64,000 nt of DNA from Allomyces arbusculus (lineage: Eukaryota; Blastocladiomycota; Blastocladiomycetes; Blastocladiales; Blastocladiaceae). The notes under the pieces were generated by a model. That model saw only the letters and a list, made by a program, of their open reading frames with translations. It ran no database searches and was not told where the DNA came from. Every line of letters starts with the position of its first letter. Position 1 is the first letter of the stretch. The stretch is from NCBI GenBank assembly GCA_027604705.1, contig JADHYV010000006.1, positions 372,001 through 436,000 of the forward strand. Direction: 5' to 3'. The position numbers were made by a program, and so were the translations under genes. Positions 7,753 to 63,867 of the stretch are shown here, piece after piece.

Positions 7753-8267
7753 ATGAGTTGGCTTGACAATATTCAGGTCTTTGCTCCGGCCGCCCAGCAA
7801 GTCGTGCGTGTCGCCGAGGACGCGGCAAAACACCTCTCAAGGGCTGCCCAAGACGCCAAGATCCACGTTCTCGATCCAGCTGGCGCGCACTTGGCCAAGG
7901 CTGCTGTTGGCGTCAAGAAACACGTGCTTGACCCAGCCGGCAAGCATCTTGTCAATGCTACGCGACATTCGCAGTGCTTTCTGATCGAGGGTGCTGCAAA
8001 ACTCGCTGACCACGCCAATCGTGGCATGCACGAACTTGCCCAACGCGTGCTGGATTTCATCAAGACGGACCCGACATGGACGACCGTGCCCACAAGAGCG
8101 ACCACGGCGGCATGGGGGATTGCGATCGACGGTCCTACAGCCACGGCCGCCACAGCAGTCCCAACTTCCAGCACGACAGAAACATGGGTGACTGCGCCAA
8201 ATGGGGTGTCAATGAACGCACGGGTCGCTTTCACGGGAGAACGGCTTCCAGTGGCCGCCCTTTTTTC

Positions 8268-8300
<33 letters not shown>

Positions 8301-9284
8301 GGCGTCATCAACCGGTTTTCTTGGAGAGAATGAAGTCCCTGTGGCACGTCTAATTGTCATTGGCCCAGCGCAGGCCGGGAAGTCGCAAATGATCCGGTAT
8401 CTCGCTGATCAAGACGCCAAGTTTGTGCCTCTCACGCCATTGCATGTGGGGAATGGCCTGGAGCCGTGCACACAATCTGTCGGTTTGCATCGCATGCACA
8501 CACCCGTTGTGCAGCGTATGCTATGTGCGAATACAGCAGGCTCATCTGCCAATGTCGAGGCAGTTTCCCTTGAATATTTGATCGATCGTGCTGCCGAGGG
8601 TAATGAGTCATTGCTCGATCTGCTGGAAGCGTCAAGCGACGACTACTCGGTGCTGTCCATTCCAGATGCAAAATTGCGCCAACGGCGTCTCGGCCTCGAG
8701 ATTCTCGACGCTCCAGGCATTCCGGATGAGGGCCGTGCGCGCGAGTTGCACTTGGCCACGTTGCTGTCACAGATGCGTGCGGCCAATGAGGTTCATGCAA
8801 TCGTTGTGGTGATCCGGTCCGTTCCAATCTATATCTGGTCGCCGAGAATTCAATGACTGACATTCCGGCCATTCTCCTGCATAGCCACACAAGGACAATC
8901 ACGCCCGCATTCCTTGACGCCACGTTTGGAGCGCATTTGGAGCTCATGTCGGCCTATGCGCAGCACATTATCGTCGTGCACTCGCACTTTCTGACGTCCG
9001 GGAGTGTCTTGTCGGGCTCGCCAATTCTTGACATTGAGCATCGGTCGACTGTGTTTGACGATTGGGTGCACTCCAAGTCATTTGGTAGCAGCGTGAAAAC
9101 GCATCACGTTGGCATGAACAACAAGTTGCCACTTCCGCGTGGCGAATATCCGGTTCTGGAGGCCTTTTGCCACCATCAGCTTCTTTCATTTGTGCGGATC
9201 TTGTGGGAAATTGTGTCTGCGCACGAGCGGATGCGGGAGCTGGGCCTTCCTGTCGCCGGATGGATGTTTTCCATCCTCAATTAG
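7753..9284 (+). CDS. GTPase-like protein A of a lineage-specific P-loop family
   Basis: Two exons (7753-8816 and 8885-9284; 68-nt intron, phase 2) encode 487 residues. Residues 1-100 are amphipathic helical repeats with HVLDPAGxHL occurring twice, reminiscent of LEA or apolipoprotein-like helices. A Thr/Ala linker and a poly-Ala run precede the nucleotide-binding fold: G1 GPAQAGKS at about 204-211, a candidate G2 Thr in EPCT, and G3 DAPG after LEIL. The usual G4 NKxD is replaced by IIVVHSHF. Two family motifs follow, SGSPILDIEHR and EAFCHHQL. It ends 35 residues after the last motif, without the C-terminal domain of gene B. Known: GxxxxGKS plus DxxG mark TRAFAC-type GTPases. Inferred: it binds nucleotide, with altered base specificity or none. 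Membrane association through the N-terminal helices is possible. The function is unknown. Confidence 0.85.
8271..8299 (+). repeat. AGC trinucleotide run encoding poly-Ala in gene A
   Basis: About ten AGC units in tandem, read in the GCA frame as alanines of the linker just before the P-loop domain. A likely length-variable site. Confidence 0.9.
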
Positions 9285-9647
9285 TTGAGTTCACGTTACA
9301 TAGTGCCACACCGAGTATAACAAATGCAGAAATATTGCTGGCACGCTCTTTAGTACGAGAGCTGTGGGAATTGCCCGGAATTGCCTGCAGACAGTTCGCT
9401 GGACCATAAACAAGTGCATGACGGACTATGGACCTGCAAGAGCAATCCTATTGTGGATCAGATCGCCACCGCACGAAACAGTGAATGTGATCGATCGGGT
9501 TGACTTTCAAAGTCAAGACAGAACGCTTTTTCACCCACAAGCTCCCAACAGCACGGTCCAACAAATCATAGCTCCCTCACGTGGCTCACGGCCGAACAAT
9601 TCCCCATCAGTCGCACCACGGAGAGCAAACCACGGAGAGCAAATGAG
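9285..9647. other. Intergenic between convergent genes, nothing seen
   Basis: A 363-bp gap between the 3' ends of gene A and the Asp-rich gene. A GAGAGCAAACCACG motif is doubled near 9620-9645. No RNA gene or coding frame was recognised. Confidence 0.5.
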
Positions 9648-10802
9648 CTAGCATTGAAGCAGCGAGAGCAGGAAATCCAGCGTCGATTTTTTCTGCAGCA
9701 CGAGCGCAGCAAACGGGCTGTAAATGATTGCGCCACATTCGCGACCCCACCACCGAATCAGGGCTGGCAAAAGGAGCGTCTCAAATTTGTCCACCCGCAC
9801 AAACCACGTCCCGGGCTCGCCATTGTTGGCCAAGTCCTTGCGCGCCACGTCCTTGGTCGGCTGCATGTCGCGGAGCGTGCGCTGAATGTGAACGCGCGCG
9901 GTCGTGTAATTGTCGCGACCAGGGCCCCAAAGCTGGGGGAACAACAGGTAGGCAAACCACCCGGCCGCAACCCACCAGTGCCCATTGTGGAAGACGGCGT
10001 GGTAGAGGTCGTGCCGCACCCACCTGCTCCGCGTCTGCTCGCAGACCGCGGCAATAAATTTCGGGACCCACCGCGGAATGCGCGTGGGCAGCGTTGCCAT
10101 GTTGGTGTTGGCCTGGATGGCAGAGCAGATTTCAGGCGTCACTTCGATCAGGTCGAACAAGTCCATGCCATTGCCATGGCGAGAGTAATTCTCGAGGTGG
10201 CCATCATTGGGCACATCTTCCTTGACGTCAGAATACACATTGTCCAGTGCATCGTCAAAATGATCGCTGTCAGGCACGTCGTCATAGTGCCAGCAGCCAG
10301 GCGCATCATCATGGAAGAACAAACTGTCAAAGTCGTCATAAGCCACGCCGTTGGACGTGAAATCGTCATCGTAAAGGCTGACAGGTCCGTCATCAGGCAC
10401 GTCGTCATATTCCCAGTCGTCGGACGTGAAGTCCCCGTAAAAAAGTCTGTCGGGATCGTCGTCGTAGTGGTCGTAGACATCGTCGTAAAAGTCGTGCATG
10501 TCAAAGTCGTCATAATCCACGCCGTTGGACGTGAAATCGTCATCGTAAAGGCTGTCAGGTCCGTCATCAGGCACGTCGTCATATTCCCAGTCGTCGGACG
10601 TGAAGTCGCCGTAAAAAAGTCTGTCGGGATCGTCGTCGTAGTCGTCGTAGACATCGTCGTGAAAGTCGTGCAAGAAAAAATCGTCGTCCTCCGAATCCAA
10701 GTACGAGTACTGGGTCGGCTCATGTGCAGCGGACGCCGTCATTGCTGCCTGCGAATGCTTGACAGCGTGCACAGCAGGAAAGCGGGGCGTAGCATTCATC
10801 AT
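9648..10802 (-). CDS. Asp-rich tandem-repeat protein, function unknown
   Basis: A single open frame of 384 residues. After about 35 residues comes an extremely acidic, Tyr/Phe-punctuated region (for example DDPDRLFYGDFTSDDWEY) made of two near-identical 58-residue units plus a partial third that decays into related DDF/DDVP blocks. The C-terminal half (residues about 215-384) is quite different: Trp-rich and mixed-charge, with RHDLYHAVFHNGHWW, AYLLFPQLWGPGRDN and LPALIRWWGRECG, so probably a folded domain. No signal peptide is obvious. I do not recognise the family. Acidic repeats of this kind can bind cations or basic partners, which is inference only. The complementary strand is open over almost the same span, but the minus frame is preferred because its repeat and the Trp-rich domain look protein-like. 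Confidence 0.65.
   Translation of the reverse strand: MMNATPRFPAVHAVKHSQAAMTASAAHEPTQYSYLDSEDDDFFLHDFHDDVYDDYDDDPDRLFYGDFTSDDWEYDDVPDDGPDSLYDDDFTSNGVDYDDFDMHDFYDDVYDHYDDDPDRLFYGDFTSDDWEYDDVPDDGPVSLYDDDFTSNGVAYDDFDSLFFHDDAPGCWHYDDVPDSDHFDDALDNVYSDVKEDVPNDGHLENYSRHGNGMDLFDLIEVTPEICSAIQANTNMATLPTRIPRWVPKFIAAVCEQTRSRWVRHDLYHAVFHNGHWWVAAGWFAYLLFPQLWGPGRDNYTTARVHIQRTLRDMQPTKDVARKDLANNGEPGTWFVRVDKFETLLLPALIRWWGRECGAIIYSPFAALVLQKKSTLDFLLSLLQC
10327..10674 (-). repeat. Two-copy 174-bp tandem repeat in the Asp-rich gene
   Basis: Copies 10327-10500 and 10501-10674 differ at only a few positions and keep the reading frame (58 codons each). The near-identity points to recent duplication or ongoing homogenisation. 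Confidence 0.9.
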
Positions 10803-11827
10803 GGCTGAAGAAGCGCGGGGACAAGGGTAGGTGCGGCTCGGTCAAGAGAACAAGCTGAGCAGCGTGATGGCGCAGGATGGCCGTGAATTGTCGAATTTTG
10901 CTGAGAGAGTACAAGCACAGGTGCAGCCGGCGGACTGGAGTCGAAATGCGAGCACCACCACTATCGAGAATCGAGACGCTCACAACAGGGGGAGAAAGAG
11001 CATCGCGACACGCGACGGGGGTTGACATTTGTTGGGTGGTTGGCGGTCGCAATCAATCATGTTGTTGTTCGCTCCACCCCATCCATCGCGCGTTTGTGCG
11101 GCAGCACTTTCACCACGGACAAATTTTGGACAGGAGCGAGACGTTATCTACGCCTTATTTATCACGCACCTGCGTTGTTGCTGACACGACATATCAGACA
11201 CTGCCTCGTCTTTGGTGCCGGCACAGGGTTGTGAAAGAAGAAAAACATGAACTTTCCAGTGGCGCGATTTTGAGCTTGCACCAAAGCCCGGATGCGTGAT
11301 TGCGCAGTTGGTATTGGACGCAATGCCAGACTTCAAGCATTCTGTTCGACTGTTCCTCTTTGCCCTGGGTCAAATGGCTGCAGTCTAACCATTTTAGTGT
11401 TTACAGCGCGTCTTTAAGCGCCTTTGTAGCACATGTGCCCGCATGTTGCTACTCAGCGCTCACGCTGGAGCGTGTTAGAGCGCTTTATTGACAAATACAT
11501 TCGATAGACAGACCCGGGCAAGTGAGAATGCGCTGGTTCTCTACGTCAAACGCACGTGCAGGCCCAGCACCATGATTCTGTTGCCGGCGTTCGCCGAGGT
11601 TGCTTCTGTGCACTGTACTTTCTCGTTAACCCCAGCACCTTCACGGCCATCAACCTGCCGCAATGCCGCTCGAGGACCAGCTATTATGTGGATCCGACGT
11701 GTTCGAGCCCAAGTCTGGCCGTCCACGAGCTCCACCAGCTCGCAATCGACCTGGTCGGTCGCCATCTGATCCTGCGGTTGCGGCCACACGCCAAGGAGCA
11801 CGATTACATTTTTCCTGCGCTCTGGAA
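10803..11827. other. Intergenic, weak coding signal only
   Basis: About 1 kb between the divergently placed Asp-rich and ferric reductase genes. A frame at about 11556-11942 is open on the plus strand and another on the minus strand, but neither resembles a family. The region must hold both promoters and possibly an untranslated first exon of the reductase. Confidence 0.4.
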
Positions 11828-13599
11828 ATGTCTCGATCAATGGCGGCAGTCGGCACGCGTAGCGCAAGGACAAACGGAGCCGACAGTGGCAGGCGAACTA
11901 GGCGTTACCTGTATGCATCAAGGACAGCAAATGCACAAGTAACCACGGCCTGTATTCTCGCGACGCTCGCCTGCCCAGTGCACGCGACCGGTGACTCTGC
12001 CTCGACGGGCATCATTCCCGTCTCCAACCCCATTGCGGCGGTTTTGGCGCTGGTCTTGATTGCTATCCTGCTCGCTGCTGCTGCTACGATACGGCTCTTC
12101 ATCCACCGGCTCGCGCCGCGCGGCCATTTGCATGCCGCGCTCAAGTGGCTCTACAATCACCCTGACGCGCGCGACGCGGGCCTCGCAATCATCGTCTACA
12201 TCCCGCTCGTGCTCGTCTTAGTCCTCTCCTCGAGCTACGGGCACGACGTGACCTACAACCGGTTCGCCTGGGTCGCGCTCGCGCACTTTGTCGCGGCCAC
12301 GTTTCTCGGCGGCGCTTTTTCTCCGCTCGCCTGGGTGCTCGACCGGCACACGCTCCTGCGTTATCACGCATTTTTCGCACGCGTCGGCGTCGTGCTGATC
12401 ACGGTTCACATGGCGCTGCACATTCACTTGTGGGAGACCTACGACCTGGTCTCGACGTTTCTTTGGGACCGGGCGAGCATGGTCTATGGCCTGTTTGCGT
12501 GGGTGACTGTCGCCAGCATGGCGCTCTCGTCGCTCCCGTGGGTGCGGCAACGCTTCTACACATTGTTCTTTGTCGCACACCACGTGCTCGTCATGCTCTT
12601 GCTCGCTCTCGTCGTCATGCACCGGCCCGCGACTGTGCCCATGGTCCTCGCCATGGCCGTTTTCCTCGTCGGAAACAAGCTCGCCGTCGCGTACATGGCC
12701 ATGGCGCGCAGTCCGGCGCGGGTCGACGTGCGTGATGCGCCGTATTGGCGCGAGGCTGCTAGCAACGCTCCGGTTGCGCAAAGTCCACGCCCCGCGCACG
12801 CTGGCCGATCACGCGCCCGGTCCACGTGCGACATTCCGCTCCTTTCGCCAACGCAAGCGACGACGCCAGGCGAATCGAGCGCGACATCGTCGTCCGTGGT
12901 CGCGGTGCGTCTGGTCCCCGCCGAATACGCATCGCTCGCGGTCGGTCCTGGCCAAGTCGTGTACCTTGCGGCGCCGCCCGTGCCCATTTTCCACCCATAC
13001 TCGCCGCACGCGCTCACGTCGACGACCTCACTCGTCACCTCCGCATCGTCCTTGGCCAAATCTGGCGGCGCCGAAGTCTGGCTCGACGCGCGGTCCAAGT
13101 TTGCGTCTAGGATCCGCGCGTCCGAGCGCGTGTTTGCGATCGTTCCACCAGCACCACAGCCTGTGCCGGTGGCTGAATTCGACGACGTGTGGTTTGTTGC
13201 CGGCGGGATGGGGATCACGCCGGTCGTAGCGTGGCTCGAGGCGATGAAGGGCCGCGAGACGCGCGTGACGGTTCTGTGGGTTGTGCACGAGGACCGCGGG
13301 GAAATGGTCGATTGGGTCGGGTATCGTCGCAGCGTGCCCGGGTTGAAGGTCAAAGTGTTCACGACGGGTGGAGAAGGTGGGAAACGGCCCGATTGGGAGG
13401 TGGAAGTACCGAAAGACATGGTGAGCGACATGTCGTTTGCGTTTGGTACGGGTGGCTGGTTTCAAGCGACGCGGACAGCATTTTGACTGACGAAATGCGT
13501 GGTTATGATTGCATAGTGTGCGGACCGCCGGCCCTTTGTGCGGCCGTGCGCAAGCTTGACCGGCCGTGGTGGATTCATGTGGAGGCGTTTGGTTGGTAA
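11828..13599 (+). CDS. FRE/NOX-type ferric reductase transmembrane protein
   Basis: Two exons (11828-13445 and 13517-13599) encode about 566 residues. The family moves electrons from cytosolic NADPH through FAD and two b-hemes across a membrane to ferric or cupric ions. A possible signal or anchor precedes TM helices from AAVLALVLIAILLAAAATI onward. Both heme-ligand helices are visible, each with His pairs 13 residues apart: YH...ITVH and AHH...VVMH. The FAD motif is HPYSPH. NADPH-binding blocks are AGGMGITP and, across the intron, FVCGPPALCAAV, ending VEAFGW like the family's last strand. The 71-nt intron (GTACGG...CATAG) was chosen because it alone restores CGPP directly after MSFAF. The start is uncertain: ATGs at 11663 and 11840 are also in frame. 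Confidence 0.85.
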
Positions 13600-18907: not shown

Positions 18908-21091
18908 ATGTCGACTCTGCATCGTTCGTTGTTATCATTACGAACCGCGAGTGTCAAAACCAGTTGGGGTGGGCAGCAACTTCCACGTCATCAGATGCAA
19001 CAGAACGTGGACTCTCCTCATGGCGTTCGACAACTACCGCGGCCAGCGTCGTCGACAACCATCATGACACCTCGCACTACCAGCATCGTTCCTGTCACTC
19101 GTTTCGTTCTCCTTGGCCCTGTGCAGTCTGGCAAGACGCAGCTTATCAAGTTCCTTGCTGATCACGCAGCCGACTTTGTCCCGATTCACCCGCTGATCGT
19201 TGGCGATGATGTGAACGCGTGCACCGAGGCCGCGACGCTGCACCGGATGCATTTCGACCCAGCTTGCCTTCGTCGCACACTGTCACGCAATGGCAGCCCG
19301 CCGCACCCGCTCAGCAAGTGGGTTGACATGACGCTGACCATGGTCCAGGCGAGTGGTGAGGACCCGGGGCAAGCCTTACTTGATATTTTCGACCCGCTGC
19401 CCGGTCGATACTTGCTTCACGCTCCAGCTGAGCCTGCAGAGAGACGTCAACACTTACTTGAAATCATTGACACGGCGGGATTTGGTTCCTTGGACGATCC
19501 GCTGCTCAAAATGCGACTGGACGACCTTCGCACAGTGATGGACGGTGTCGGCGATGTTCACGCGGTTGTTGTTGTGTTCCGGTATTCATGCGAACCCAGG
19601 TCGCTCACATCCACGTTGCTCGACTCTCTTGAACCCTATCTTGCTTTGCTCTCGTCACTGTGCTCGCATATCATTGTTGTCCACTCGCACTACGTCCCGC
19701 AATCCGCCATCGTTGCTGGCAAGTCGTACTTGAATCTGTCGGACCATGTGGCTGCCTTCGACGCTTGGCTCCACAAGCAAGCGTTTGGTCGGGACCTCAC
19801 TGTTGCGCATCTTGCCATGAACAACAAGTTGCCCATGCTGCGAACGTGCCCTGTTCAGGACGCGTTCTGTTTCCAGCAGCTTGATTTGCTGCTGCGGACG
19901 GTCATTCAAGTTAGTGGCAGAGTCGATGGTGATACCTTGGCGTCACAGAGCCTCTATGGGCGCACTCAGCTGACGCGCTGGTCAAGCCATGCTCCGTCAT
20001 TTGTCACTGCACTGCAGTCCGACTCCACAACGTTACACCCTTCGTCTCTTGGTGGGGACGGTCAAGACATTTTCACTGCAGATCGTGTCGAGGGAGAAAT
20101 TCCTGCACCCGCTCGGTTGGAGGTCATGCCAATCAAATCTTATCGGGGACCTGTCGCTCTACGGTCCCATGGTGGGGTCTATTTGTGCTATGGCCCCGCC
20201 GATCTGAAGAAAAAGCGGGCGCGATTCGGGCTCTTCAAGCGCACACCAAGCGATTCGATGAACGAGGACGGCTTGCAGCAGCAGCAACTCCTGCACGTCA
20301 CCTGTCTAGCACCAGACGACTGGCATATCTGGCCGCAGAACAACATCACGACAGGATCAGACGTGTTGTTACCGCAATCGATCAGCTATCATCTTGTCCT
20401 GCCCTCGGACAGTGATGGTCGTATTGCCATATTGAGCCAGACTTGGAGCTTCATGGAACCGATCCGGGAGTCGAATGGCGGCATCTCGATGAGCTTTGCT
20501 GCCCAGTACTCGGTGGACAAGTCATTTGAACTGTTCCATTACGACAAGATGGGCCGTCGCGTCCTCGATTCGCTACCCGCGACGTTTTGGCGCCGCCCGA
20601 TCCGCTTGCTCAATTATCACGCCAACGTGTTTCTTCATGCTCCATCGCTTACAATGCAGCCAGTTCATTTGGCCTCTCCCATGGACCCAGCCTACGTATG
20701 GGCGCTAGAACCGCATCCAGGCGGCTGTGGAACAATGCGGATCAAATGCGTCTCCCTCAATTTGTGGATTACTGTTGCCGTGCCTCATGAGGAGATTGAG
20801 TTGACGCCAGTGGAGGCTGATGCAGCCATGTTCTGGACCATGCTCTTGACATCGCCGCACGGTGTGGGGTTTTTGCTGGCGGGACCGGCCAAGCTCGTGG
20901 AGCATTTCACTGCCTCATGGCCGCTGACGGAATCACGCAGGAAATTGTTGGGAGTCGTCCAAGATCCGGACAGGGGGCTCGTGCTTGGTCTTCATGAATT
21001 GTGGCCATCTGGCATCTTCTCTGATCGCTCTTTGCAAACGAGGGGGGGACGGGCTTGTCAGTTTGAGTTGGTGGCGGTTCCAATGGAATAG
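18908..21091 (+). CDS. GTPase-like protein B with C-terminal beta-rich (trefoil-like) domain
   Basis: An intronless 727-residue frame. The first 60 residues are basic and Ser/Thr-rich. The nucleotide-binding fold follows: G1 GPVQSGKT at about 70-77, candidate G2 Thr in NACT, G3 DTAG after LEII, a G4 position reading IIVVHSHY, then the family motifs AGKSYLNLSDH and DAFCFQQL. Residues about 400-727 form a region absent from A and C, with repeated short strands such as GPVALRSHGGVYLCYG, RPIRLLNYHANVFLHAP and MRIKCVSLNLWITVAV. The pattern of a strand, a Gly or His turn and a YL or VFL strand suggests one or two beta-trefoil or fascin-like units; this is inference. B lacks the phase-2 intron shared by A and C, so it either lost it or passed through an RNA intermediate. 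An ATG at 18904 is out of frame. Confidence 0.85.
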   Translation: MSTLHRSLLSLRTASVKTSWGGQQLPRHQMQQNVDSPHGVRQLPRPASSTTIMTPRTTSIVPVTRFVLLGPVQSGKTQLIKFLADHAADFVPIHPLIVGDDVNACTEAATLHRMHFDPACLRRTLSRNGSPPHPLSKWVDMTLTMVQASGEDPGQALLDIFDPLPGRYLLHAPAEPAERRQHLLEIIDTAGFGSLDDPLLKMRLDDLRTVMDGVGDVHAVVVVFRYSCEPRSLTSTLLDSLEPYLALLSSLCSHIIVVHSHYVPQSAIVAGKSYLNLSDHVAAFDAWLHKQAFGRDLTVAHLAMNNKLPMLRTCPVQDAFCFQQLDLLLRTVIQVSGRVDGDTLASQSLYGRTQLTRWSSHAPSFVTALQSDSTTLHPSSLGGDGQDIFTADRVEGEIPAPARLEVMPIKSYRGPVALRSHGGVYLCYGPADLKKKRARFGLFKRTPSDSMNEDGLQQQQLLHVTCLAPDDWHIWPQNNITTGSDVLLPQSISYHLVLPSDSDGRIAILSQTWSFMEPIRESNGGISMSFAAQYSVDKSFELFHYDKMGRRVLDSLPATFWRRPIRLLNYHANVFLHAPSLTMQPVHLASPMDPAYVWALEPHPGGCGTMRIKCVSLNLWITVAVPHEEIELTPVEADAAMFWTMLLTSPHGVGFLLAGPAKLVEHFTASWPLTESRRKLLGVVQDPDRGLVLGLHELWPSGIFSDRSLQTRGGRACQFELVAVPME

Positions 21092-44768: not shown

Positions 44769-46433
44769 ATGGCGACCTCCAACAAGCCGCACCTCGACCT
44801 GTCCGTCTACCTCGTCACGGACTCGCGCATGGTCCCCGAGGCCGAGTTTCTCGCCACCGTCGAGGCAGCGCTGCAGGGCGGCGTGACGCTGCTCCAGCTG
44901 CGCGAAAAGTCGCTCGACACAGCCATCTTTGCCGACCGCGCGCGCGCGACGCTCGCACTCGCCCGCAAGTACGGCGTGCCGCTGCTCATCAACGACCGGC
45001 TCGATGTGGCGCTCGCTGTCGGCGCCGACGGCGTGCATCTTGGCCAAGACGATCTCGACGCGCATACGGCGCGCGCGCTGCTCGGGCCCAACAAGATTGT
45101 CGGCGTGACCGTGCACAACATTGCGCAGGCCGTGGCCGCGGCTGAGAACGGCGCCGATTACCTCGGCACGTGCGCGATTTTCGATACCGCGACCAAGGCG
45201 CACCCGGACGGGTTTGTCCCGCTCGGGATCGAGGGCGTGCGCACGCTGCTCGCCGACATGGCCGAGCACCCGCGGCTCGCCAAGATGCCGATCGTCACGA
45301 TTGGCGGGCTCAACGCCGAGAATATTGGCGCCGTCATGGCCGAGACGGCGAACCCGCGCAAACAGCTCGACGGGGTCGCCGTCGTGTCGGCGATCATGGC
45401 GCAGCCCGACGCGCGCGCGGCCACGGCCGAGCTTGTCGAGATTGTCAAGGCCGGCAAGCTCGTGCCCAACGCGCAGTATGTGGCCAATGCCGACGACGCG
45501 CTCGTTCAGGCCGCGACGCACTTGCTCGCAAAGCTGCGCTCGGGCCAGACGCCGCTTGTACACCACTTGACCAATTTTGTCGTCATGAACGATAATGCCA
45601 ATGCCGCACTGCATATCGGCGGGTCGCCTGTCATGGCGCACGCAGTGCAGGAAATGAACGATATGACGGGGTTCGCGTCGGCGCTCGTCATTAACGTCGG
45701 CACGCTGTCGGAGACCTGGATTGAGGCCATGGTCCTCGCGGGCAAAGTCGCGAATGAGCGCGGGATCCCGGTCATTCTTGACCCGGTCGGTGCGGTACGG
45801 TTATACATCCTCTTCACTTTTCCTCTCGCAATAAACCGTTTGACTGACGCGAATGCTTGTGCACCGTCTCAATAGGGCGCGACGGCGTACCGCCGCGAAA
45901 CCTGCGAGCGCCTACTGCGCGAAGTGCAATTCGCCGTGATCAAGGGCAACGCCGGGGAAATCGCGGCGCTCGCAAACCTGCCCGGTCTCGACGTTGAAAT
46001 GCGCGGCGTCGACTCGGGGGACTCGTCGCCCAAGGCGCGCATCGCCCTGTCGCGCGCGCTCGCGCAGGCCACGGGCGCCGTGGTCGTCCTGACGGGCGCG
46101 ACCGACTTCATCTCCTACACGGACGGTGACGAGCTCAAGACGGTCGCGCTCGAGAACGGGTCGGCGTGGCTCGGCAAATTGACGGGCACCGGGTGCACGA
46201 CGGCGACGCTCGTCGGGTGCTTTGCGGGGGTCGCTGACGCGGAGCAGCGTGCGGCCGCGGCGGTGGCGGGCGTTTTGAGCATGGGCATTGCGGCCGAGTT
46301 GGCGGTGCCCGAGGCCAAGGGGCCCGCGTCGTTCAAGGTTGCGCTGTTCGACCACCTCTATGCGCTGCAGCCAAAGGATCTGGTCAAGTATGCGCGTGTG
46401 CGTGTTGTGGAGGTTACGGAGGACGAGGAGTAG
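44769..46433 (+). CDS. THI6: Bifunctional thiamine-phosphate synthase / hydroxyethylthiazole kinase
   Basis: Two exons (44769-45794 and 45876-46433; intron GTACGG...CAATAG, phase 0) encode 527 residues. The N-terminal ThiE half (residues about 10-230) joins HMP-diphosphate to the thiazole phosphate: LYLVTDS-like [35 protein letters not shown], and the phosphate-binding [10 protein letters not shown]. The C-terminal ThiM half (about 255-520) phosphorylates hydroxyethylthiazole: [37 protein letters not shown] joined over the intron to GATAYRRE, and the nucleotide-site [17 protein letters not shown] with the catalytic Cys region. The fusion is characteristic of fungi and is the full length expected. 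The ATG at 44769 begins the ThiE homology directly. Confidence 0.96.
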
Positions 46434-46918: not shown

Positions 46919-47800
46919 TTAGCATAGCTTGACAAGCTCCCCCATCTCGACGCACACCAAGTTGGCCGTGAGTGGCGTCTTAAGAGCGTACTTGGACAAC
47001 AAGTCGAAGAAAGCAGCGCGCTGCTGATAGTAGAACGCGATTCGAGCTGCACGATCAGCTGGCGACATGCTCGTCTTGACAGGAAGCGCGTCAATCAGCA
47101 AGTCTGGCCGGTTCAAGGCGGCCGTGATCTTGTCAAAGCGTTCGGACACATTGAGGTACTCGTCGCCGTTCATGAGCACGATGTGCGGAATGTAGTTTGT
47201 GAAGAGCAGCGCCACCTTTGGGCAGAACTTGCCGTATTGGGCGAGGTACTGCGACAGCGACTCGACGGTCGATGGGCTCACATCGTGTGGATACCTCAGA
47301 TCGCCAAAGACAGTCAGCAGCGTTTGAGCATCACGGGCGGGCAAGCCCGGGGCAAAAGAATGAAGACCGCCAAACCGTACCCGCTGGCAAAGATCAAGCC
47401 CTGAGGAGCAATGTGAGAGCGGAACAGGACGACGAGAATGCGAATCAGCGTGTCGTAGTATGCATGCTGGTCCGTGTCATACAGATAGAGCATCTCGTCT
47501 GGCCTTGGCAACTTCACGAGTTCGACAAAGACGTTGGCATCTTTTTCGTTGCCGCCTGCCGTCTTGATCAGCACGAGCTCGTTCTTGGTGGCGGACTAAA
47601 TCTCCATCATGTCCTCTGCCGATGAAGCGGCCTCAACAAGCGAGGAGAGAGTCGATGGTGCCGTGTCCTTGCCGAGCCATCGCAGCTTATGTTGCGGCAA
47701 TGCGACCGAGTTTGTGGTGACGGTCAAGCTCAGACTGGGAGCAAACGGCAACAGCACGCGCGACCTCCTGTGTACGCGACGCTTGGAGGAAGAAGAGCGT
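46919..47800 (-). pseudogene. E': decayed, truncated copy of pseudo-GTPase gene E
   Basis: The minus strand carries two stretches that align with gene E in order. The first (about 47800-47340) has LPFAPSLSLTV, HKLRWLGKDTAP, VFVELVKLPRPDEM and the IAPQGLIFASGYGLAV block. It is broken by one in-frame TAG at 47598-47596, and the E intron donor that should follow is lost. The second (47280-46919) has SPSTVESLSQYLAQYGKFCP, LLFTNYIPHIVLMNGDEYLN and RIAFYYQQRAAFFDLL, then a stop. The membrane hairpin and C-terminal tail of E are missing, and no N-terminal start is preserved. It lies in the same orientation as C and E, so local duplication followed by decay is the simplest reading. It could still be transcribed. 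Confidence 0.75.
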
Positions 47801-48258: not shown

Positions 48259-49167
48259 TCAATGGCTCAAAGCGTCGACAACGTCCACAAAAACGCCGAG
48301 CTGCTGATAGCAGAACGCTTCTTGCACTGGATATGCTTTGGGCGGGACTGGCATCTTGTTCATGGGAATATGCGTCGTGTGCAAATGGTCCCCATACGAT
48401 TTTGTTCGCAGCCACCCATCAAATACGGCGACACGGTCCGATAAGTTGAGGTATGGCTTGCCGGCTTCAACGGCCATGTTGGGCAAGTAATGCGAGTGAA
48501 CAACAATCAGGTTCGTGCAAGTCTTGGACAGCTCCTCGAATGGGCCGGCAAACTTGGCCTCCATGTTCTCGGGCGTGATTCGTGTCGCGTAACTGGGAAT
48601 TTCACAATGTTGTGAGTATTAAGATCAGCAGAGCGAGTACGAGGGTGTGTCCAAATCGTACCGAATCACAATGACTGCCGCGTCAATCGCAGGAAACGAC
48701 TGCAAGAATTCAGTCAGCCCTAGATCGCGGTCCACTTGGGTCCCACTCATGTCAAGTCCGGGCGTGTCAAACAGCTCCAGATTGAGAATGGGGCGCTTCA
48801 TTTCGGTTGCCCCCATGCCCTCAAGCAAGTAATCATCGCCAGAAGCTTCAAATAAGTCGAACATTTCTTCAACCGCCTTGTCAGAAACACCGTTTACTTG
48901 ATCCACCCAGAAGCTGAGCGGCTTCAAAACGTTGCCGCTGTCGTCACGTGAGACTAGTGCACGACTCAGGCGTTCACGGTAGAGGCGAACGGGATACATG
49001 GCCATCCGCGACGTGCACGGCCCAATGTCACCACCAATCGCAAGCGGCTGCTCAGCATGGAAGGCCGGGTCCTGGTCGGCCAGAAACTTGGTGAGCTGAG
49101 TCTTGCCGGCTTGCGCAGGGCCGATAAAAAGCAGGCGCGCGACGGGTACTTCGTGAATTTCGGCCAT
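48259..49167 (-). CDS. GTPase-like protein C (short form)
   Basis: Two exons (49167-48662 and 48592-48259; 69-nt intron GTACGA...TTCCCAG, phase 2) encode 279 residues, the shortest member. It starts MAEIHEVPV and goes straight into the P-loop fold: G1 GPAQAGKT at about 16-23, candidate G2 Thr in GPCT, G3 DTPG after LELF, the G4 position IVVHSHYLPN, then AGKPYLNLSDR and QEAFCYQQLGVFVDVV, ending 5 residues later. So it is essentially the bare nucleotide-binding domain, a useful reference for the fold's limits. The intron falls in the same codon context (VIR) and phase as in gene A. Function unknown; nucleotide binding is inferred from G1 and G3. Confidence 0.85.
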
Positions 49168-49721: not shown

Positions 49722-51910
49722 TCATTCCCCAGCCTCAAACTCCGGAAGATCGAGCTCGTTGAGATCATTTGGCAGCTCGGGGAGCGCCCCATGCGCTGTT
49801 GCTGCAAAGACCAGGTTCGACAACGTGAGGCCGTCCTTCAAATAGATATTTGCGGGCATCGCAATCTGCTGCTGCGCGAAACGCTGGCCTGCCGGTAGAG
49901 ACGGCCCCTGTTGCACCGGCACTATCGCCTGCTCGGTCACTTCAGGAACTTTAGCCGGGAAGACGAAAGCCGGCATGCGCGACGCTCCCGAGGGAATCCC
50001 AGCCTTGGCATACAGCTTAATCAAGTCCTTGTTGTTTGGCTGCAACTCGAGCTTGGGCGTGAGCACGAGCAGCATCGCGCCCAGCTCGCGCGCGACTTTC
50101 TTGTCGGCCACAAAGGCGACGGCAAGGCCGACCACGTCTGCAGCCTCCGGTTTTGGGTAATCCGACGTGAGCTGCGCCGCGAGCCGAAGGAGCGGCTTGC
50201 TCATTGCGAGCAGAGTCACGACCGACATGTCATCAGCCGAAATGGCCGCCTGCAGCGCGTCGAGCTCGGCCGACCACTTGTCAATGGCGGCGAGCCGCGT
50301 CTCGACGAGCCGGACCTTGGCATCGACAATCGCCTTGCCGCGCTTCAGCTTGGTCTCGCGCGCGGTGGCCTCGCGGCGCGCGTCCTTAAACCGCTGTACC
50401 TTGTCGTGGCGGTCGTGCACGAGCATCAGGACCAGCGCGGCGAGCGCGGCCGCGACCGTTGCAGCCACAGCGACGCCGAGCCGCTCGACGAGGACGGCAG
50501 CGAGAACCGACGTGAGAACCAGACCCGTGTCCTGGTACGGCTTGATCTGCTGCTGCCGTGTAATCTGCGCATCGCGCGTCGCAATCTCGTGCGTGTTGTC
50601 CGACAGGATATTGGCGCACACGTTGGCCTCCTTGGTCATCTCGACGAGGTCGGACGCGAGAAGGGTCTTGGTGGCAACGAGCCCCTTGCGGATGGTCTCG
50701 ACACCGACGAGAACCGACTGGAGAGCATGGCGGGTCGCGTCAGTGCTGGATCTTTGCTGTCGTGCGAGTGAATGCGAGGGAGAAAACGTACGCTCAACCA
50801 CACCTTGATGAACTCCTGCATTTCGACGCGCACCGATTCGGCCGTGAGCTTCGAGTCCCGTGCGCATTTCGAGAGCAAATCAATGAGCGCCGCGCGCTGC
50901 TGGTAGTAGAACGCGACCCGTGCCGCGCGCCCGGCCGGCGGCAACGTCGTTGCGACGGGGAGCGCGACAGTCGGCAAGTCTGGCCGGTTCAAGTCGGCCT
51001 TGATCTTGTTGAGGCGCTTGGACACGTCGAGGTACTTGTCACCGCTCATGAACACGACGTGTGGGTTGTAGTCGGTGAAGAGCAGTGTCACGTTGGGGCA
51101 GAACGTGCCGTATTGGGTGAGGTAATGCGAATACGACTCGACGGTCGATGAGCTCAAGCCCTCCGGAAACCTGAAGCGTTCAAAAGGGGTGACTCAGGCA
51201 AAAGTCCGGAACAAGATGGAGAAGGCCAAACCGTACCCGCTGGCGAAAATGAGGCCCTGTGGAACAATGTCGGAGCGGAACAAAACATTGATAATACGAA
51301 CGAGCGTATCGAAGTACGATTGCCGATCCGTGTCGCGCAAGTACTGCATGTCGGCCGGAGTCGGCAACTGCACCAACTCGACGAGCACCTTCCCGTCCTT
51401 GTCATCACGACTCGCCGTCTTGATCAGCTCGAGGTTGTCGCTGGTGGCGGCAAACAGCTCCGACAATTCCGTCGGCGACGATGCGGCCTCGACCAGAGAG
51501 GAGAGAGGCGCCGGTGCCGTGTCCGTGCCGAGCCAGCGCAACTTGAGCTGCGGCAACGCGACCGAGAAAGTGGTAACGATCAGGTTCAGGGCGGGCGCAA
51601 AAGGCAGCGGCACGCGCGTCCTCTCGACGACACTTGACGACGCGTCCTCAGACAACAAATTCTCGACTGCGGCATAGTTGGCAGGGCTCTCGCTGTAAAT
51701 CAGAAATCGTAGGGCTGCAAGGAAATTGGTCGAGGTCAAGAGGCCATCAGACGCCGAACTGGACGCGGACTGGAGCACCTGTTCCTTGAGGAGGTCACTT
51801 GCGCTAGATGACCGCGTGCTGGACACCTTGGCATAACTTGGTGGTGCGCTGCTGGCGCCATGGTTGATGCTGCGGATCAGCTCCTCCTTGATCAGATCCG
51901 TGGCCATCAT
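49722..51910 (-). CDS. Pseudo-GTPase-like membrane protein E with two-helix hairpin
   Basis: Three exons (51910-51213, 51170-50792, 50717-49722) encode 690 residues. After a Ser-rich N-terminus the region ALRFLIYSESPANYAAVENLL aligns with the P-loop strand and helix of A-C but lacks GKS/T. VLVELVQLPTPAD sits where G3 (LELFDTPG) should be. LLFTDYNPHVVFMSGDKYL and RVAFYYQQRAALIDLL are the family motifs. Residues about 422-460 form two hydrophobic segments (LVLTSVLAAVLVERLG and AVAATVAAALAALVLMLV) separated by a very short turn, a membrane hairpin. A charged coiled coil and helical region follow, then a Pro/Gln-rich tail with an acidic end (ELPNDLNELDLPEFEAGE). The first intron is only 42 nt (GTTCCG...CTTCAG) and falls at the same site and phase as in A, C and D. 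Probably catalytically dead and membrane-anchored; role unknown. Confidence 0.83.
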
Positions 51911-52985: not shown

Positions 52986-53630
52986 TCATTCATGGCGAAC
53001 GAGGCTTTCTCTGGCATCGACGAATTCAAATGTGAACAAACCACCGCATTCCTTGATCAAAGTGACGGTCTGTGCGCCCACGTCGCTTTTCTTTGGCGCC
53101 ACGGACAAGAACAGGCGATCTGTACTCCGTGCTTGAATTATGAATGCAATTTGGCTTGGCGCGGCCACGAGCGTGACCCAGACGGCCGCCGCGTCATCAA
53201 TACTGTCCGTCACGCCAATCGCTTGAAAATATGAAGAGGGCCAGACATTGCCTGAACCGCTCTTGATGCGAAACGCGCCCAGCTTGAGTTGGTGCGGTTC
53301 GAGCGCCCACTGCGATGTGACGTTGCACGATGTCGTCGCAGGAGCGGGTCGTGCAACAAACTCAGTGCCAAGGAGCTGGACGAAGGTGGTAGTCGACACT
53401 TCGTGGCGTATCCAAACAGGACGGTTGAAAAACGATGGCATTCAAGAGGTATGCTGTTGTGCAGGGCTTCGTAGCTTGCTTGGACGGTATACTACGCGAC
53501 AGCTTTGGCACCTTTCCACAGCGGGTCCTTCGTCGGTACTTCGCCAGTTACAAATGCGCCTATCGACGACATCAGTGCGGCGCGGCCTGTGCCGTCCGAA
53601 GGCAAGATTACGCGGTACTTCTGCTCGGCC
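52986..53630 (-). pseudogene. F: decayed fragment of a B-type C-terminal domain
   Basis: Minus-strand sequence aligns in order with the C-terminal region of gene B. Near 53627-53540, YRVILPSDGTGRAALMSS matches YHLVLPSDSDGRIAILSQ of B. After a stop and a frame change, the 151-codon frame 53441-52986 begins MPSFFNRPVWIRHEV, matching LPATFWRRPIRLLNY of B, and continues with SQWALEPHQLKLGAFRIKS (against VWALEP...TMRIKC) and IIQARSTDRLFLSVAP, a clear strand-turn-strand unit. There is no nucleotide-binding domain upstream that I can recognise. The 53441 frame could still be expressed as a small trefoil-like protein, but the upstream breaks indicate a former longer gene. Confidence 0.65.
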
Positions 53631-57184: not shown

Positions 57185-57549
57185 GCACGAGAGATGGGTT
57201 GGGTGAGCGCTCCCTGTTGACGAGCGCGCGCTCTTGTACAAACCTTTGTTTGTGAATACATTTCGACCCTGCTTTAAAGAGCAAGTCTGTGATGCCGAGT
57301 CAGAGTTTCAATCGTGCAATTTGCGGACTACCAACGTGACAAGCGGTGGTGGTTGAGCTTCTTGGACAGAGTCGACAGGGATACGCTGGAACGGAGGAAG
57401 GGAGAGCGGCAGCGATAACGCACGGGCACGGCAAGCGGTGGAGGTGAGCGTGCTTGAAGATTTGGTACAAACGGGGTTGCATCCAATACCAATCACAGGA
57501 GAAAACAAATGAGGAGTTGACGAGATATATACAAGGGCAATAGGTTCTA
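57185..57549. other. Intergenic between convergent genes, nothing seen
   Basis: A 365-bp stretch holding the 3' ends of the reductase and RRP7; no RNA gene seen. Confidence 0.5.
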
Positions 57550-58474: not shown

Positions 58475-58850
58475 GGTGGGTGCTGCGTCGATCGTCGTCG
58501 TGGATTGATGTGATCACTTTCGTTGACGACGATGATTTGATGATTTGCGGTGGGAAATGGTGCGCGGTGGTCAGCTGTCAGCACATGACTGGTTGCTGCA
58601 AAGCCCAAGAGGCTGGATCACGAACCCGTCAGAACCCTCGCACGGCTCTGACGACGCTCACTTTGCACCACCTCGGTGCTGTCTGCAGCCGCGAATCATC
58701 TCGACAACGTCGAGCGACGACGACGACGGCGACCCAGGCTACCCAACAGCTCGCAACTTGCCGCATAGTGTCGGCCGTGCCGCTATCTGCCCTTGGATCG
58801 AGTTTCGCGCCCAGTAGACAAGCACGATGCTCAGCGTCTGTATTCCAAAC
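58475..58850. promoter_or_regulatory. Divergent promoter region, RRP7 and NUP58
   Basis: A gap of about 376 bp with a run of GATGATTTGATGATTTG near 58530-58546. Short frames across it are not coding-like. Confidence 0.4.
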
Positions 58851-60837
58851 ATGACCCGGCCCACGACAACACCAACCCGGCGACCCGACGCCCGACCGAC
58901 CGCGCAAAATGAGGCTAACGCCGTGGTATACACGTTGTGAACTTGCCGGCACCATCTAGTTTAGCGCGACGGCCCCTACACCCGCGGCCACGTCCGCAGC
59001 GGCTCCGGCCTTCTCGCTTCCTGCGCTCGGGTACTTGCCGCCGTCCTTGTCGATGAAGATTATGTTAGGAGCACGTCGCTAACGGCTCTACACGTTCCCA
59101 GTGCTCCCTCCGCCTCGACGGCCGCACCGGCCACGGCACCCGCGACCCCCAGCCCCTTCGGCGCCCTCGCCACGCCGGCCAGCACCGCGCCCGCTACGAC
59201 CACTGCCGCGGCCCTCGCATTCGGCGCGTTCGGCGCCCCCGCAGCGACTACCGCTGCCGCGACCACGTCCCTCTTTGGCGCACCGGCCACGACGACCGCC
59301 GCCCCCGCTTCCTCGCTGTTTGGCGCGACCATCACCACGGCGCCCGCAACGACGGCGGCGCCGGCACTCGGCGGGTTCGGCGCACTGACCGCGACCACCA
59401 CAACCGCGGCGACGGCAGCACCGTCGCCGTTTGGGGCACCGGCCGTCTCAGCTCCCGCAGCGGCCCCGTCCGTGTTTGGCGGGCTCACGACTGCGACGAC
59501 CACGGCAGCGTCGGCCGCGCAGCCACCACAGCCGCTGACGCTCAAAACCAAGTATGCGGATATGACGGCCGACCAGCAGAAGGCGTTGACCGAAATCGGG
59601 TGCGTGCTGCGTTCTTCCCACTTCCGTTCATCGATCACCGCAACAAGCTGACATTCCGATCCCCCGCGCCACTAGCATGCTGATCCACGACCAAATCCAC
59701 ATGGCCGACCAGCTGCAGTCGCAGGAAGTGGGCGAGTTTATCGACACGCTGACCGACGACGTCTCGCGGCTGCGCAAGTGCTACGGCAACATTGCCACTA
59801 TGCTCGACCGCGACATGGCCGCGATTCAGACGCTACGGTCTTCGGTGCGCACAGAACTGAACCGCGTGGAAGTGGCCGGCCGAATCCTGGACGCGGTGAA
59901 GAAGGGGACGACCGCTGAGATTGCGTATAACCGCACCTACTCGATTGTGCGGTACTTTACCGAAAAGGAGGGCGAGTTCCGGACACGCGCGGCCGAGTAT
60001 GCTCAGCGGCTGGCGGTACGTGGTCGCGTTTTGTTGTTTGACGAAGTCCTGCGTCGCTGACGGTTCGGTTTGGGTGGGTTGCAAGGAAATCGAGGACCAT
60101 GTCGCGTCGCTCGCGCGGTCGCAGCCGCCTTCGCCGCAAGCTGTCGCTGAGACGATTCGCGCGCAGAACAACTCGTTCCTTCTGCTCGCGAGCCAGGTGG
60201 CCGCACTGCACAACCAGGTCGAAAAGTTGCGCGACCAGTACCTTGTCTACCGCCGCCAGTACCACGGCGACGGGAAGAACCCGTTTGGCAAGGCCGGCAA
60301 GAAGAAGAAGCGTGCCTCTTCGGTCGTTGCTGCCGAAGGTACGCTACGCGGTGGGTGTGGGGGGTTTGGTCGAACAGGGCTGGTGGGCTGACTGGTCGCG
60401 TGTACACAGATGCCGAATTCTCTTACAAGGAGTACGCCAACCAGTTTGTCGAGCCGACGAGCGTGACCGTTGTTGCGGCCGCGCCCGCTGCGGCACCCGC
60501 TGCGGCAGCGGCTGCGCCGGCAGCGTCCATGTTTGGCGGGTCCATTTTTGGCACGCCAAAACCTGCCACGACCGCGGCGACCACGGCCGCACCCGCGCCT
60601 GCGTTTGGCGGTAAGTCTTCCTTTTCATCTCCAACGTCGATTAACCCGCCAAAGTCGAGATCTGACTGTTATTCGCCGCTTCGCTTAGCCTCGTTCGGGA
60701 CGAGCACGTTCGGCCAGCCCGAGTCGAACAAGCGGCAGGCAACGGGTGGGCTGTTTGGCAGCACGCCCACGCCGGCACCGGCACCGGCGGCGCCCGCAAC
60801 GGGCGGGTTTGGCGGGTTCAGTTTTGGACCGAAGTGA
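58851..60837 (+). CDS. FG nucleoporin NUP58/NUP45 (yeast Nup49) family
   Basis: Seven exons are proposed: 58851-58925, 58960-59030, 59102-59599, 59676-60015, 60086-60338, 60410-60610 and 60689-60837, about 528 residues. The protein belongs to the central-channel Nup62 complex of the nuclear pore. The N-terminal third is an FG domain with FSATAP, SPFGAL, LAFGAFGAP, SLFGAP, SLFGAT, GGFGAL and SVFGGL units spaced by Ala/Thr/Pro. The central coiled-coil domain (LTLKTKYADMTADQQKALTEI; HDQIHMADQLQSQEVGEFI; ALHNQVEKLRDQYLVYRR) is the family's structural core. A C-terminal FG tail (MFGGSIFGTP; STFGQP; GGLFGSTP; GGFGGFSFG) ends the protein. Exons 2-7 are secure by frame. The first exon (MTRPTTTPTRRPDA) and its 34-nt intron are tentative; the true start may lie elsewhere. 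Confidence 0.85.
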
Positions 60838-61584
60838 TGTGGATAGGGAACGCAGAAGAGGTACACCGTGTGTCTGTTGCAAGCAGGCTGGGGGCTTGAA
60901 CAGGAATGTTGCCTTTGAACGGAGAACCGAGAACGCGCGCAAATGCGCGCGCGTGCTGGCACGTCCTGCCCGACGGGTGCTGTCTGGTGTCGAGGCATGT
61001 CAACCGCCGCCCGACTGGTGGATTGTTTGACAACCGCTCCGATTGCCGATGTGATCAAAGGGCATTAAACTCATCAAAGCGCCGGCACGACCTTGTCCAT
61101 TGGCCACAGGTGGAGAAATGCGGTCACATCTTGAACATACCAACAATACCACCATCTTTGACACGTCGTGGGCGCTCGCCGCGGCCTTCACCAACCAGGC
61201 CGACTGTGTGACTTTGCCGAACCTTGGACCTGCACGCCGGAAGCGGGTCGCAGCAGCATGGGCGCAGCACGGACAGCAATCGGCGAACATGGAGGATGGG
61301 TGGCGCGCGCGCTGGAGGACCTTCTCCTCTGGCGATGCACGCCTTCTGCACAAGCTACATGGTTTATGTACGAACTTGCGTCGACCCGCATCTATCCTCC
61401 GCTCAAGTACCTCTGGCCCTCGTCGAGGCGCTCTTTCTCCCTCGCTCTCGCGCGCGGACGCTCTGCGAGTCCCCGACGGTCGACAAGCTTTCGTTTTCGG
61501 TTTCGATTTCGTTCTCGTAATTCTCGTTCTCGCCCTGCGCGCGCACCTCGCCCGTTCGACGCCAAGGACGGCGTGCTCGTCAAG
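60838..61584. other. Intergenic, gene D promoter region
   Basis: About 750 bp without a recognisable gene. The last 130 bp before the D start are pyrimidine-rich, as expected for a 5' untranslated leader. Confidence 0.45.
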
Positions 61585-63867
61585 ATGGCCACCGTCAACA
61601 TTAACAAGCCGCCGCTCGCATCGTCGTCGCCGTCTGAGAGCACCGCGCCGCCGCCCGGTTATGTCGACGTTGCTACTGCCGCTGCCGAGTCGTCGAAGAA
61701 GCAGCTCGCGGCAGATCCCGATCCGAGAATCCTCACCAAAAAGGGTCTTGTCGCGCCGGCCGTAGCGGACATGGAAGCGGTTCCGCCGCCGCCATCATTG
61801 GCGACGCTCCGGGTCCTGATCGCGGGCGATGGCGACGACGCAGTGAACCTCGTCTTGACCATCATCGACTGGATCGCCGACGGCAAGTATATTGGCAATC
61901 AGCAGCCCTACCCGCTCCCCCATTGCGACGATGCCGCAGCCGTGCAAATGTACACGTGTGAAATCCGTAAGAAGACGTTTGCGCTGCGCAAGCCCGGGTC
62001 GTCCGACGAGCCTAAGTCGCTCGCGGACATGGTCGCGGGGACGGCAGCTGTGTCGAAGTTGTTTGGCTTCAAGTCGGATCAGCTCGAGCTCGTGGAAGTC
62101 AAAAACGCCCTGAACGACAAGGGTGAGAGAGTCACGGTCGAGTTCATTTTCCTGCCGCAACCGGCGGTGCTGCTGGCACTGAAAAACTCGCATCCGTACG
62201 GGTACCTCGACGCACTCTTTGCAATTCTGGGCTTGGCCTACCGCGATAACGGCGCGCTCTACGGCCTGTTTTACGTGACCGAGTACGCTGCCATTTTGTC
62301 CCCCTGATCGACGCGCGTGTGCAGACAGAACTCTGTCTCATGTTTGCCACCTCTGTGAAGTTATCAAACCAGCCAAAACGAACTCGCGTTGACCATGTTC
62401 GTCGACCAATTCGCGTCGCTGTGCCCAAACCTGACCTACATCATGGCCAACTACGAGCCGCGCACCGTGATCATGGACGGCGGCGCCTACCTCGACGTGC
62501 GCCAGCGCATCGCACCCATCCATGCCCTGCTCGATGCGCGCAACGTCACCCTGACGGCGATTCCTGTGACCACGACGCGGCCTCTTGTCGACCGGCCGGC
62601 GCGCACGGCCTTCTACTACCAGCAACTCGGCCGGGTCATTGATATTCTCATCGGGTTCAACCGGCTCGATTCGGCCGTCTCGGCGCACACGGCCAAGTTG
62701 TCGATGCCGCCCGCGCTGGAAATGTGGACTCCCGTACGCTCTGTTGCCTCCTCCGCCAACAAGAGCTAGCGAGAGTATGCGTGATCTGACGCTGCCGTGT
62801 ACCAGCAGGCGCTCTTGGACTTTCTCGACGCCGGGTCCAAACTCTTCAATGAGAAAAGCCAAGGTTATCGGCAGCAGCGCGTCGCGATTGACCAGAGGAT
62901 CAAGGAGTTTGACCAGCGCATCGCTAAATGCACAGAGGCGAAGGCCACGGCCGACGCCGCCATTAAGCGGCACGAAACGGTCAAGGTCTACGTGCCCGGC
63001 CTCATGGTCGTGGTCGTTGGCATCACGTCCGTGGCCGTAAACCATTTTGGCCCCGTCGTCACAGTCTTGGCCGTGTGCATGCTCGCGGCTGGCACGATTG
63101 GGCTCATGCAGGTGAGCGAGAGAAAGGCGCAGCAGCTGAAAGCCACGCGCGACAAGGCCGAGAAGCAGTTGCCCGAGTTGGCAACCGAGAAGAGCAAGGT
63201 TGGTGGTATGCTCCCGGAGGTGGCGGTTAAGATCAAGGCTGTTGCCAACTGGCAGGCTATGCTCGAACTCGTGCGCAACGCGTGTCCGACGGGCAAGGAC
63301 GTGTCAGTCGCAGCGCTGATCCCGTTGCGCAAGCCGCTCATCAGTCTCTGTTCTCGAGCGGCATCGGATTCGCCCACGCTCAACGAGGACTTGGCCGACC
63401 TTGCCATGGCGTTCCTCGGCACCACGGGCGATGACGCGAAACGGGTGCGCTCTTTCCTGTACTCGCTCGCCACACAGCTCAGGCAATCACGGGCCGAGAG
63501 CTCAAGCAGCGCGGCAGTGCAGCGCGAGCTGGCTGTCGAGCCACTCACGGAAGAGCCGCCCGAACCGGCCGCTGCACGTCCGGTCGGCAAGATCGTTGCG
63601 ATGCCGGTCATCCTCAGGCCAGGGAATGACGTGCCGAAGATCGAGGAAGCGCGTCAAGGCCCTCCGGTACCCGACGCTGACTATTTGGGCGTCACATTCG
63701 AGGAGATTATGAGCGAGCACGACCATGGACTGGTGATACCAGAGTTGCCTCCTCCTCTCCTGGTGATGCCAGGGTTGCCTCCTCCCCTGGAATTGGTCGA
63801 ACCGGGTCCTGTGGATCGGGCGGCCAAGCTGTCTCATCAAAGTCAGGAGGCCGACGAGTTGCTCTGA
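61585..63867 (+). CDS. Pseudo-GTPase-like membrane protein D with two-helix hairpin
   Basis: Three exons (61585-62297, 62373-62733, 62806-63867) encode 711 residues with the same layout as E. After a Pro/Ser-rich N-terminus, LRVLIAGDGDDAVNLVLTII takes the place of the P-loop strand and helix but has no GK(S/T). VEFIFLPQPA replaces G3. YIMANYEPRTVIMDGGAYLD and RTAFYYQQLGRVIDIL are the family motifs, the latter nearly identical to QEAFCYQQLGVFVDVV of C. Two hydrophobic segments at about 417-458 (GLMVVVVGITSVAVNHFG; VVTVLAVCMLAAGTIGLM) form a membrane hairpin, preceded by a coiled coil (DQRIKEFDQRIAKCTEAK). The long tail is helical, then Pro-rich with a short duplicated LPPPLxVxPGLPPPL unit and acidic residues. 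Intron 1 (phase 2) matches A, C and E; intron 2 (phase 0) lies at a position equivalent to E's second. ATG 61585 is the first giving a plausible N-terminus. Confidence 0.85.
63729..63790 (+). repeat. Short tandem duplication encoding a Pro-rich unit in gene D
   Basis: The segment GGTGATACCAGAGTTGCC followed by CTCCTCCTCTCC recurs about 33 bp later as GGTGATGCCAGGGTTGCC and CTCCTCCCCTGG, giving IPELPPPLLV then MPGLPPPLEL. Confidence 0.75.

Follow-up and report, generated by a model that had tools for sequence, protein, structure and literature searches.

A divergent family of TRAFAC GTPase-type genes with motif-bearing and motif-stripped heads in Allomyces arbusculus

Dynamin-like proteins carry a hydrophobic paddle or tip and a motif set of G1, G2 (T/S), G3, and a less conserved G4 (RD or N/TxxD), as described in excerpts of PMC5827413, where bacterial LeoA is said to have shown no guanosine triphosphatase (GTPase) activity and is thought to require LeoBC. 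AIG1/GIMAP proteins have G1–G4, a conserved box, and a G5/IAN block, and their genes show variable fusions, partial copies, and expansion in some animals (excerpts of PMC7053062). Fungal Mx-like proteins (MxF) are dynamin-superfamily members of very variable copy number, and none is reported in Allomyces macrogynus in the excerpted parts of PMC11789081. Here we examine a stretch of 64,000 nucleotides from Allomyces arbusculus (contig JADHYV010000006.1, positions 372,001 to 436,000 of the forward strand; hereafter the window, whose own numbering is used throughout), in which genes A to E and a decayed copy, E', form what appears from the sequence to be a divergent TRAFAC GTPase-type family, without an entry in the libraries searched and perhaps undescribed. 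We propose, at a probability of roughly 0.4, that this family of heads exists in two forms that act as a dynamin-like membrane system.

All six loci are present where the preliminary description of this DNA placed them, and their translations read as it reported: A (7753 to 9284), B (18908 to 21091), and D (61585 to 63867) on the forward strand, and C (48259 to 49167), E (49722 to 51910), and E' (46919 to 47800) on the reverse strand. Pairwise comparison by tblastn within the window, in which some expectation values (E) combine two pieces, separates two close groups, A/B/C (B–C 1e-40 at 36% identity, A–C 6e-45, A–B 6e-38) and D/E/E' (D–E 3e-32, E–E' 2e-90), connected by weaker matches (B–E' 6e-6, C–E' 3e-5, C–E 3e-4). 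An A/B/C profile recovers D (4.6e-7), E' (4.5e-6), and E (4.8e-4) in the window, and a D/E profile recovers B (1.7e-8) and C (3.5e-8); in a control of 1385 pieces, each shuffled five times, the best values are 1.2 for the first profile, 0.41 for the second, and 3.1 for a profile of all five heads. Comparing the A/B/C and D/E profiles with each other gives a local match at E 2.8e-8, spanning what follows the P-loop region. Judged by these comparisons, the six loci are homologous well beyond chance, as the preliminary description had claimed for this window.

The two groups differ in the motifs they carry. The P-loop (G1) reads GPAQAGKS in A, GPVQSGKT in B, and GPAQAGKT in C, and G3 reads LEILDAPG, LEIIDTAG, and LELFDTPG in the same order; a conserved CT is the likely G2 of these three. 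Both G1 and the LE(L/I)xD(T/A)(P/A)G motif are confined to A, B, and C. The G3 place of the other loci holds a relic form (VEFIFLPQP in D, VELVQLPTP in E, VELVKLPRP in E'), and no P-loop was found in D or E, the E' piece not spanning that part. The G4 motif [NT]KxD is absent from all six loci, its site reading HSHF in A, HSHY in B and C, ANYE in D, TDYN in E, and TNYI in E'. Compared with the dynamin-like G1–G4 set, then, A–C have G1 and G3 with G4 absent at its site throughout, and D and E retain at most a G3 relic. From the P-loop lysine to the G3 aspartate there are 109 to 112 residues in A, B, and C, a spacing within the dynamin-type range that exceeds that of Ras, septin, or AIG1 proteins. 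The retention of G1 and G3 in A–C, the His-containing G4 substitute, and the G3 relics were all noted in the preliminary description, and the motif scan agrees with it. Its list of features shared by all six loci stands for AF[CY][YFH].Q and for G..[YI]L[ND]...[RH] (with I in place of Y in A and H in place of R in B) and fails for the (H/N/D)(Y/F)xP turn, which five of the six have and which in A is HFLT.

Gene structures, with introns predicted from sequence alone and the intron ends of A and C placed by eye, show how variably the head is used. Gene A (487 residues; exons 7753 to 8816 and 8885 to 9284, intron 8817 to 8884) has an amphipathic, repeat-containing N terminus ahead of a GTPase-type head at about residues 195–470; two near-repeats of the unit HVLDPAG(A/K)HL lie near amphipathic helical segments at 7825 to 7992 on the forward strand (residues about 25–80). 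Gene B is intronless (727 residues), with its GTPase-type head at about 60–340 and a C-terminal module of no recognized kind, in which strands are predicted at low confidence. Gene C (279 residues; exons 49167 to 48662 and 48592 to 48259, intron 48661 to 48593) is a head only. Gene D (706 residues; exons 61585 to 62282, 62373 to 62733, and 62806 to 63867) runs from a pseudo-GTPase head through a coiled coil, a hydrophobic hairpin, and another coiled coil to an acidic, proline-rich tail, and gene E (678 residues; exons 51910 to 51237, 51170 to 50804, and 50717 to 49722) has the same layout. The predicted introns thus number one each in A and C, two each in D and E, and none in B. A phase-2 intron before the G4 strand is common to A, C, D, E, and E', B being without it, and in A and C it directly follows the strand preceding the G4 strand. 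In A, C, E, and E' this intron lies 35 to 36 residues ahead of the point where the G4 strand and its turn end; in D the distance is 28 residues, with either a shorter helix or a misplaced acceptor. The common intron site lends further support to the kinship of these five loci and, with the homology and the varied architectures, upholds the earlier view of a real and diverse family.

Library searches assign this family to no named one. No match to the heads passes threshold in Pfam, NCBIfam, PHROG, or PDB, in keeping with the preliminary description, which had found no family to assign it to, and none of the matches listed in the open-license literature describes it. Among five heads searched against Pfam, one matches MMR_HSR1 at E 0.0021 (18.6 bits, cut-off 21.9); NCBIfam gives small_GTP at 0.011 for one of the five, and the best PHROG value is 0.025. 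PADLOC has no match to the heads, the D read-through matching solely in its tail. In PDB sequence searches B alone finds no match, an A/B/C profile finds 12, mostly P-loop stretches (best Midasin, 0.0052), and a five-head profile finds 10 (best 0.4). We rejected the PDB sequence matches as kin, CLP1, Rab-like, and Rho6 being P-loop stretches and mitochondrial Era matching over G3–G4 at E 0.28. Five plasmid records matching the first exon of A (best E 0.09; three GTPases, one "GTP-binding DUF697," and one unannotated) were likewise judged to be P-loop resemblances. Scans of viral contigs with four queries and of prokaryote genome contigs with two, seeded from one to six short patterns and so liable to miss distant kin, yielded no confirmed relatives.

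A structural model supports placing the head of B among TRAFAC proteins. B, the only one of A–C that was folded, was modeled with AlphaFold2 on an alignment whose five rows were C, two pieces of A, E, and D. The mean predicted local distance difference test score (pLDDT) is 49 overall, and within the head (residues 61–340) 24 of 28 ten-residue blocks reach at least 60. The order of elements is beta1, P-loop helix, beta2, two helices with an extra strand, beta3, helix, beta4, helix, beta5, helices, beta6, and helix. Foldseek returns 1,234 PDB matches at E up to 10 (best 1.1e-3), and among the best 50 of them GTPases predominate (EF-Tu, EngB, Rheb, G-alpha, IF2), dynamin-1 ranking 22nd and septin 9 ranking 33rd; the two top matches are pre-60S chains, which we take to be Nog1. 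Three matches at or below 0.001 come from a viral structure library: a dynamin N-terminal-domain protein (6e-4), an uncharacterized phage protein, and an AIG1-type protein (8e-4). On this model the B head is probably a Ras-like, TRAFAC domain. The TRAFAC superfamily core, a Ras-like alpha/beta arrangement with a P-loop after beta1 and DxxG after beta3, is seen in the motifs of A–C and in the B model, and D and E lack these motifs. The Ras-like core of the B model is also what the family shares with septin, TOC, and Ras-like TRAFAC GTPases, from which it differs in having no sequence-family match above threshold and no G4.

These data bring up the possibility that the family is instead a divergent AIG1/GIMAP- or septin-like one, whose members are soluble or tail-anchored, scaffold-forming GTPase switches with D and E as coiled-coil pseudo-GTPase partners. 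By eye, A, B, and C have a strand and then an R.(I/L)T-type segment ahead of the G4 strand (A: HAIVVVIRHTRTIT), which resembles the AIG1 conserved box, and A and B have MNNK at the G5 place, which resembles FNN(K/R) of the G5/IAN block (both as given in excerpts of PMC7053062). To these may be added the P-loop, DxPG, the viral AIG1-type structure and septin 9 among the fold matches of B, and the variable fusions and partial genes that AIG1/GIMAP families share according to the same excerpts. Against this, neither an AIG1 nor a septin profile is among the Pfam families listed for the five heads at E up to 10, a range in which HMMER filters drop most matches above about 0.1; no AIG1 or septin chain is among the 12 PDB sequence matches; the G4 site has neither TxxD nor [NT]KxD; and the G1–G3 spacing is longer than in either family. 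We regard this alternative as unlikely.

The region following the head in D and E, which the preliminary description leaves unmentioned, is what shifts our preference away from a GIMAP-like switch and toward a membrane-remodeling type of system. Here a coiled coil bears a hydrophobic hairpin region of about 40–50 residues inside predicted long helices, at 411–458 of the spliced D protein (465–512 of the D model, which was built on a read-through including intron residues); no comparable hydrophobic segment occurs in A, B, or C. The D model is good only in its long helices, at about 411–560 of the model numbering, and the 50 best PDB matches of this model include chemoreceptor models, alpha-pore and Tc-type proteins, dynein, and Smc arms, among others. 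The D tail matches Pfam PF21808 (Dynamin-like_hel_bact) at E 4.9e-5 (23.1 bits) and PADLOC LeoBC at 1.2e-4, and the E tail, 27% identical to it, matches LeoBC at 0.015 over a profile stretch overlapping that of D. LeoBC appears in none of six reversed or shuffled control tails, and PF21808 in none of the four searched against Pfam, in none of 14 control genomes, and not in the one plasmid record (L001) scanned; a plasmid search with the D tail found no match. These similarities suggest, weakly, that the D and E tails resemble bacterial dynamin-like helical domains.

Under the dynamin-like proposal, the form 1 heads (A, B, and C) would bind nucleotide with an intact P-loop and switch-II motif and without the canonical guanine-recognition motif, and would do so alone (C), behind an amphipathic helical region (A), or ahead of a further module (B). 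Form 2 (D, E, and the relic E') would comprise heads stripped of nucleotide motifs, set in D and E on a coiled-coil rod whose hydrophobic hairpin could insert in a membrane. Form 2 may then be membrane-anchored and non-catalytic, with form 1 as its nucleotide-driven partner, and head-to-head pairing would link the nucleotide state of form 1 to membrane assembly, tethering, or disturbance by form 2. This model follows proposals for LeoA with LeoBC in bacteria and an analogy with mitofusin-type proteins. Likenesses to the bacterial dynamin-like proteins (BDLP/DynA, LeoA–LeoBC) and to mitofusin/FZL include the long G1–G3 spacing of A–C, the coiled coil with its hydrophobic hairpin in D and E, the weak tail matches to PF21808 and LeoBC, and a possible pairing of competent and incompetent partners. 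Unlike in those systems, G4 is absent here, the matches are sub-threshold or weak, and head and trunk are split, A–C lacking a trunk and D and E lacking G1 and G3. We consider quite improbable a more specific version, a dispersed two-part dynamin-like system with catalytic heads and membrane-inserting pseudo-GTPase rods on separate, fast-turning-over paralogues, forming GTPase/pseudo-GTPase pairs for allorecognition or antiviral defense with a non-canonical, His-containing nucleotide-base site.

Several results, in addition to MNNK in A and B, weigh against the dynamin-like proposal. Dynamin_N matches A alone of the five heads (E 0.13), a resemblance that also makes MxF proteins distant at best. 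The B model has no PDB match at E ≤ 0.001, and eight of its 50 best matches are not GTPases (five CTP synthase and three MalC reductase). The D head model is poor, with pLDDT mostly below 50, and so supports no Ras-like fold; the fold implied by the preliminary description is modeled for the head of B and not for that of D. No dynamin-family chain is among the 50 best PDB matches of the D model. In the tails, the PF21808 match of D lies below the cut-off of 28.3 bits and E has no match to this family, the D tail further scores 0.0057 against the PADLOC model of an unrelated "4TM effector," and the PF21808 and LeoBC matches all fall in coiled-coil or hydrophobic sequence, which is prone to chance matches. 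Once reversed, the tails still match other families, with E as low as 0.014 in Pfam and 0.028 in PADLOC, and the LeoBC value of the E tail is therefore at noise level taken alone; its positional agreement with D lends it some weight.

Several of these points would also suit a lineage-specific TRAFAC family, close to no named one, in which the D and E tails are a generic coiled-coil or two-helix membrane anchor and the likeness to dynamins is convergent or due to chance. Every library match of the heads, like the PF21808 match of the D tail, is below threshold, the fold matches of D are generic long helices, and the pattern-seeded scans of viral and prokaryote contigs confirmed no relatives. 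That two tails of such low identity match overlapping LeoBC stretches, with no such match among the controls, speaks for the dynamin-like proposal instead, and we consider the lineage-specific explanation somewhat unlikely.

A very improbable explanation is that A, B, and C were acquired recently from a foreign or viral source, or are near-pseudogenes drifting outside any working system. Their third-position guanine-plus-cytosine (GC) content is 0.59–0.63, below the 0.72–0.92 of all 22 predicted genes (D, E, and E' included), and a codon-trained gene finder omitted all three; this GC contrast is inflated because the predicted set was itself selected by codon bias. The reading frame of B stays open for 727 codons, for which base composition gives a chance of about 4e-12, A and C carry the intron site of D and E, and the pattern-seeded scans confirmed no viral relative. 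The A/B/C pairs, about 34–42% identical by piece, differ at a proportion of 0.40–0.42 of replacement sites (pN) against 0.72–0.74 of silent sites (pS), from which we infer that these genes are constrained and old.

E and E' are 61–65% identical by piece, with ratios of replacement to silent change (dN/dS) of 0.20 and 0.39 in two pieces; for D and E simple counting gives 0.73 in the head and 0.89 in the tail, so that by this measure replacement changes build up in them nearly as quickly as silent ones. We do not call this positive selection, since divergence at silent sites is large and codon usage is skewed. E' is a decayed copy of the E head with an in-frame stop at 47598 to 47596 and its intron still visible, and a search found no match there to the third exon of E. 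A seventh relic (53136 to 53617, reverse strand), in two frames with a stop, resembles only the B C terminus (residues 494–544 and 559–657); as a decayed copy of that module alone, it indicates that the module occurs at least twice. Because E' and this relic show loss of parts, the earlier mention of truncations and decay was right. The role in defense or self/non-self recognition suggested alongside it would at most be compatible with such gene turnover.

The spliced gene predictions and the neighboring genes mark the window as eukaryotic. A scan using a single exon from each of 10 of the 22 predicted genes matches WDR75, XMAP215/TOG, a fused thiamine monophosphate synthase/hydroxyethylthiazole kinase, and a PIN domain (PIN_6), the last in a protein that is presumably NOB1. 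The fused thiamine gene (44769 to 46433, forward strand), which points to a fungal source, ends about 0.5 kb from E'. A predicted gene at 9648 to 10742 on the reverse strand encodes very acidic D/Y repeats and contains a stretch of about 187 bases duplicated within it at 95% identity (10325 to 10511 and 10499 to 10685). Rfam and transfer RNA scans of the window returned nothing.

The six loci thus represent a real, divergent family within a known superfamily, for which no entry was found in the libraries searched. If the dynamin-like proposal is true, they would add to fungal biology a GTPase/pseudo-GTPase family with a non-canonical G4, in which the nucleotide switch is naturally separated from the membrane trunk. 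Such a family would offer a test case for the regulation of membrane-active partners by pseudo-GTPases, and may be a second high-turnover dynamin-like family in fungi, beside the MxF proteins described in excerpts of PMC11789081.

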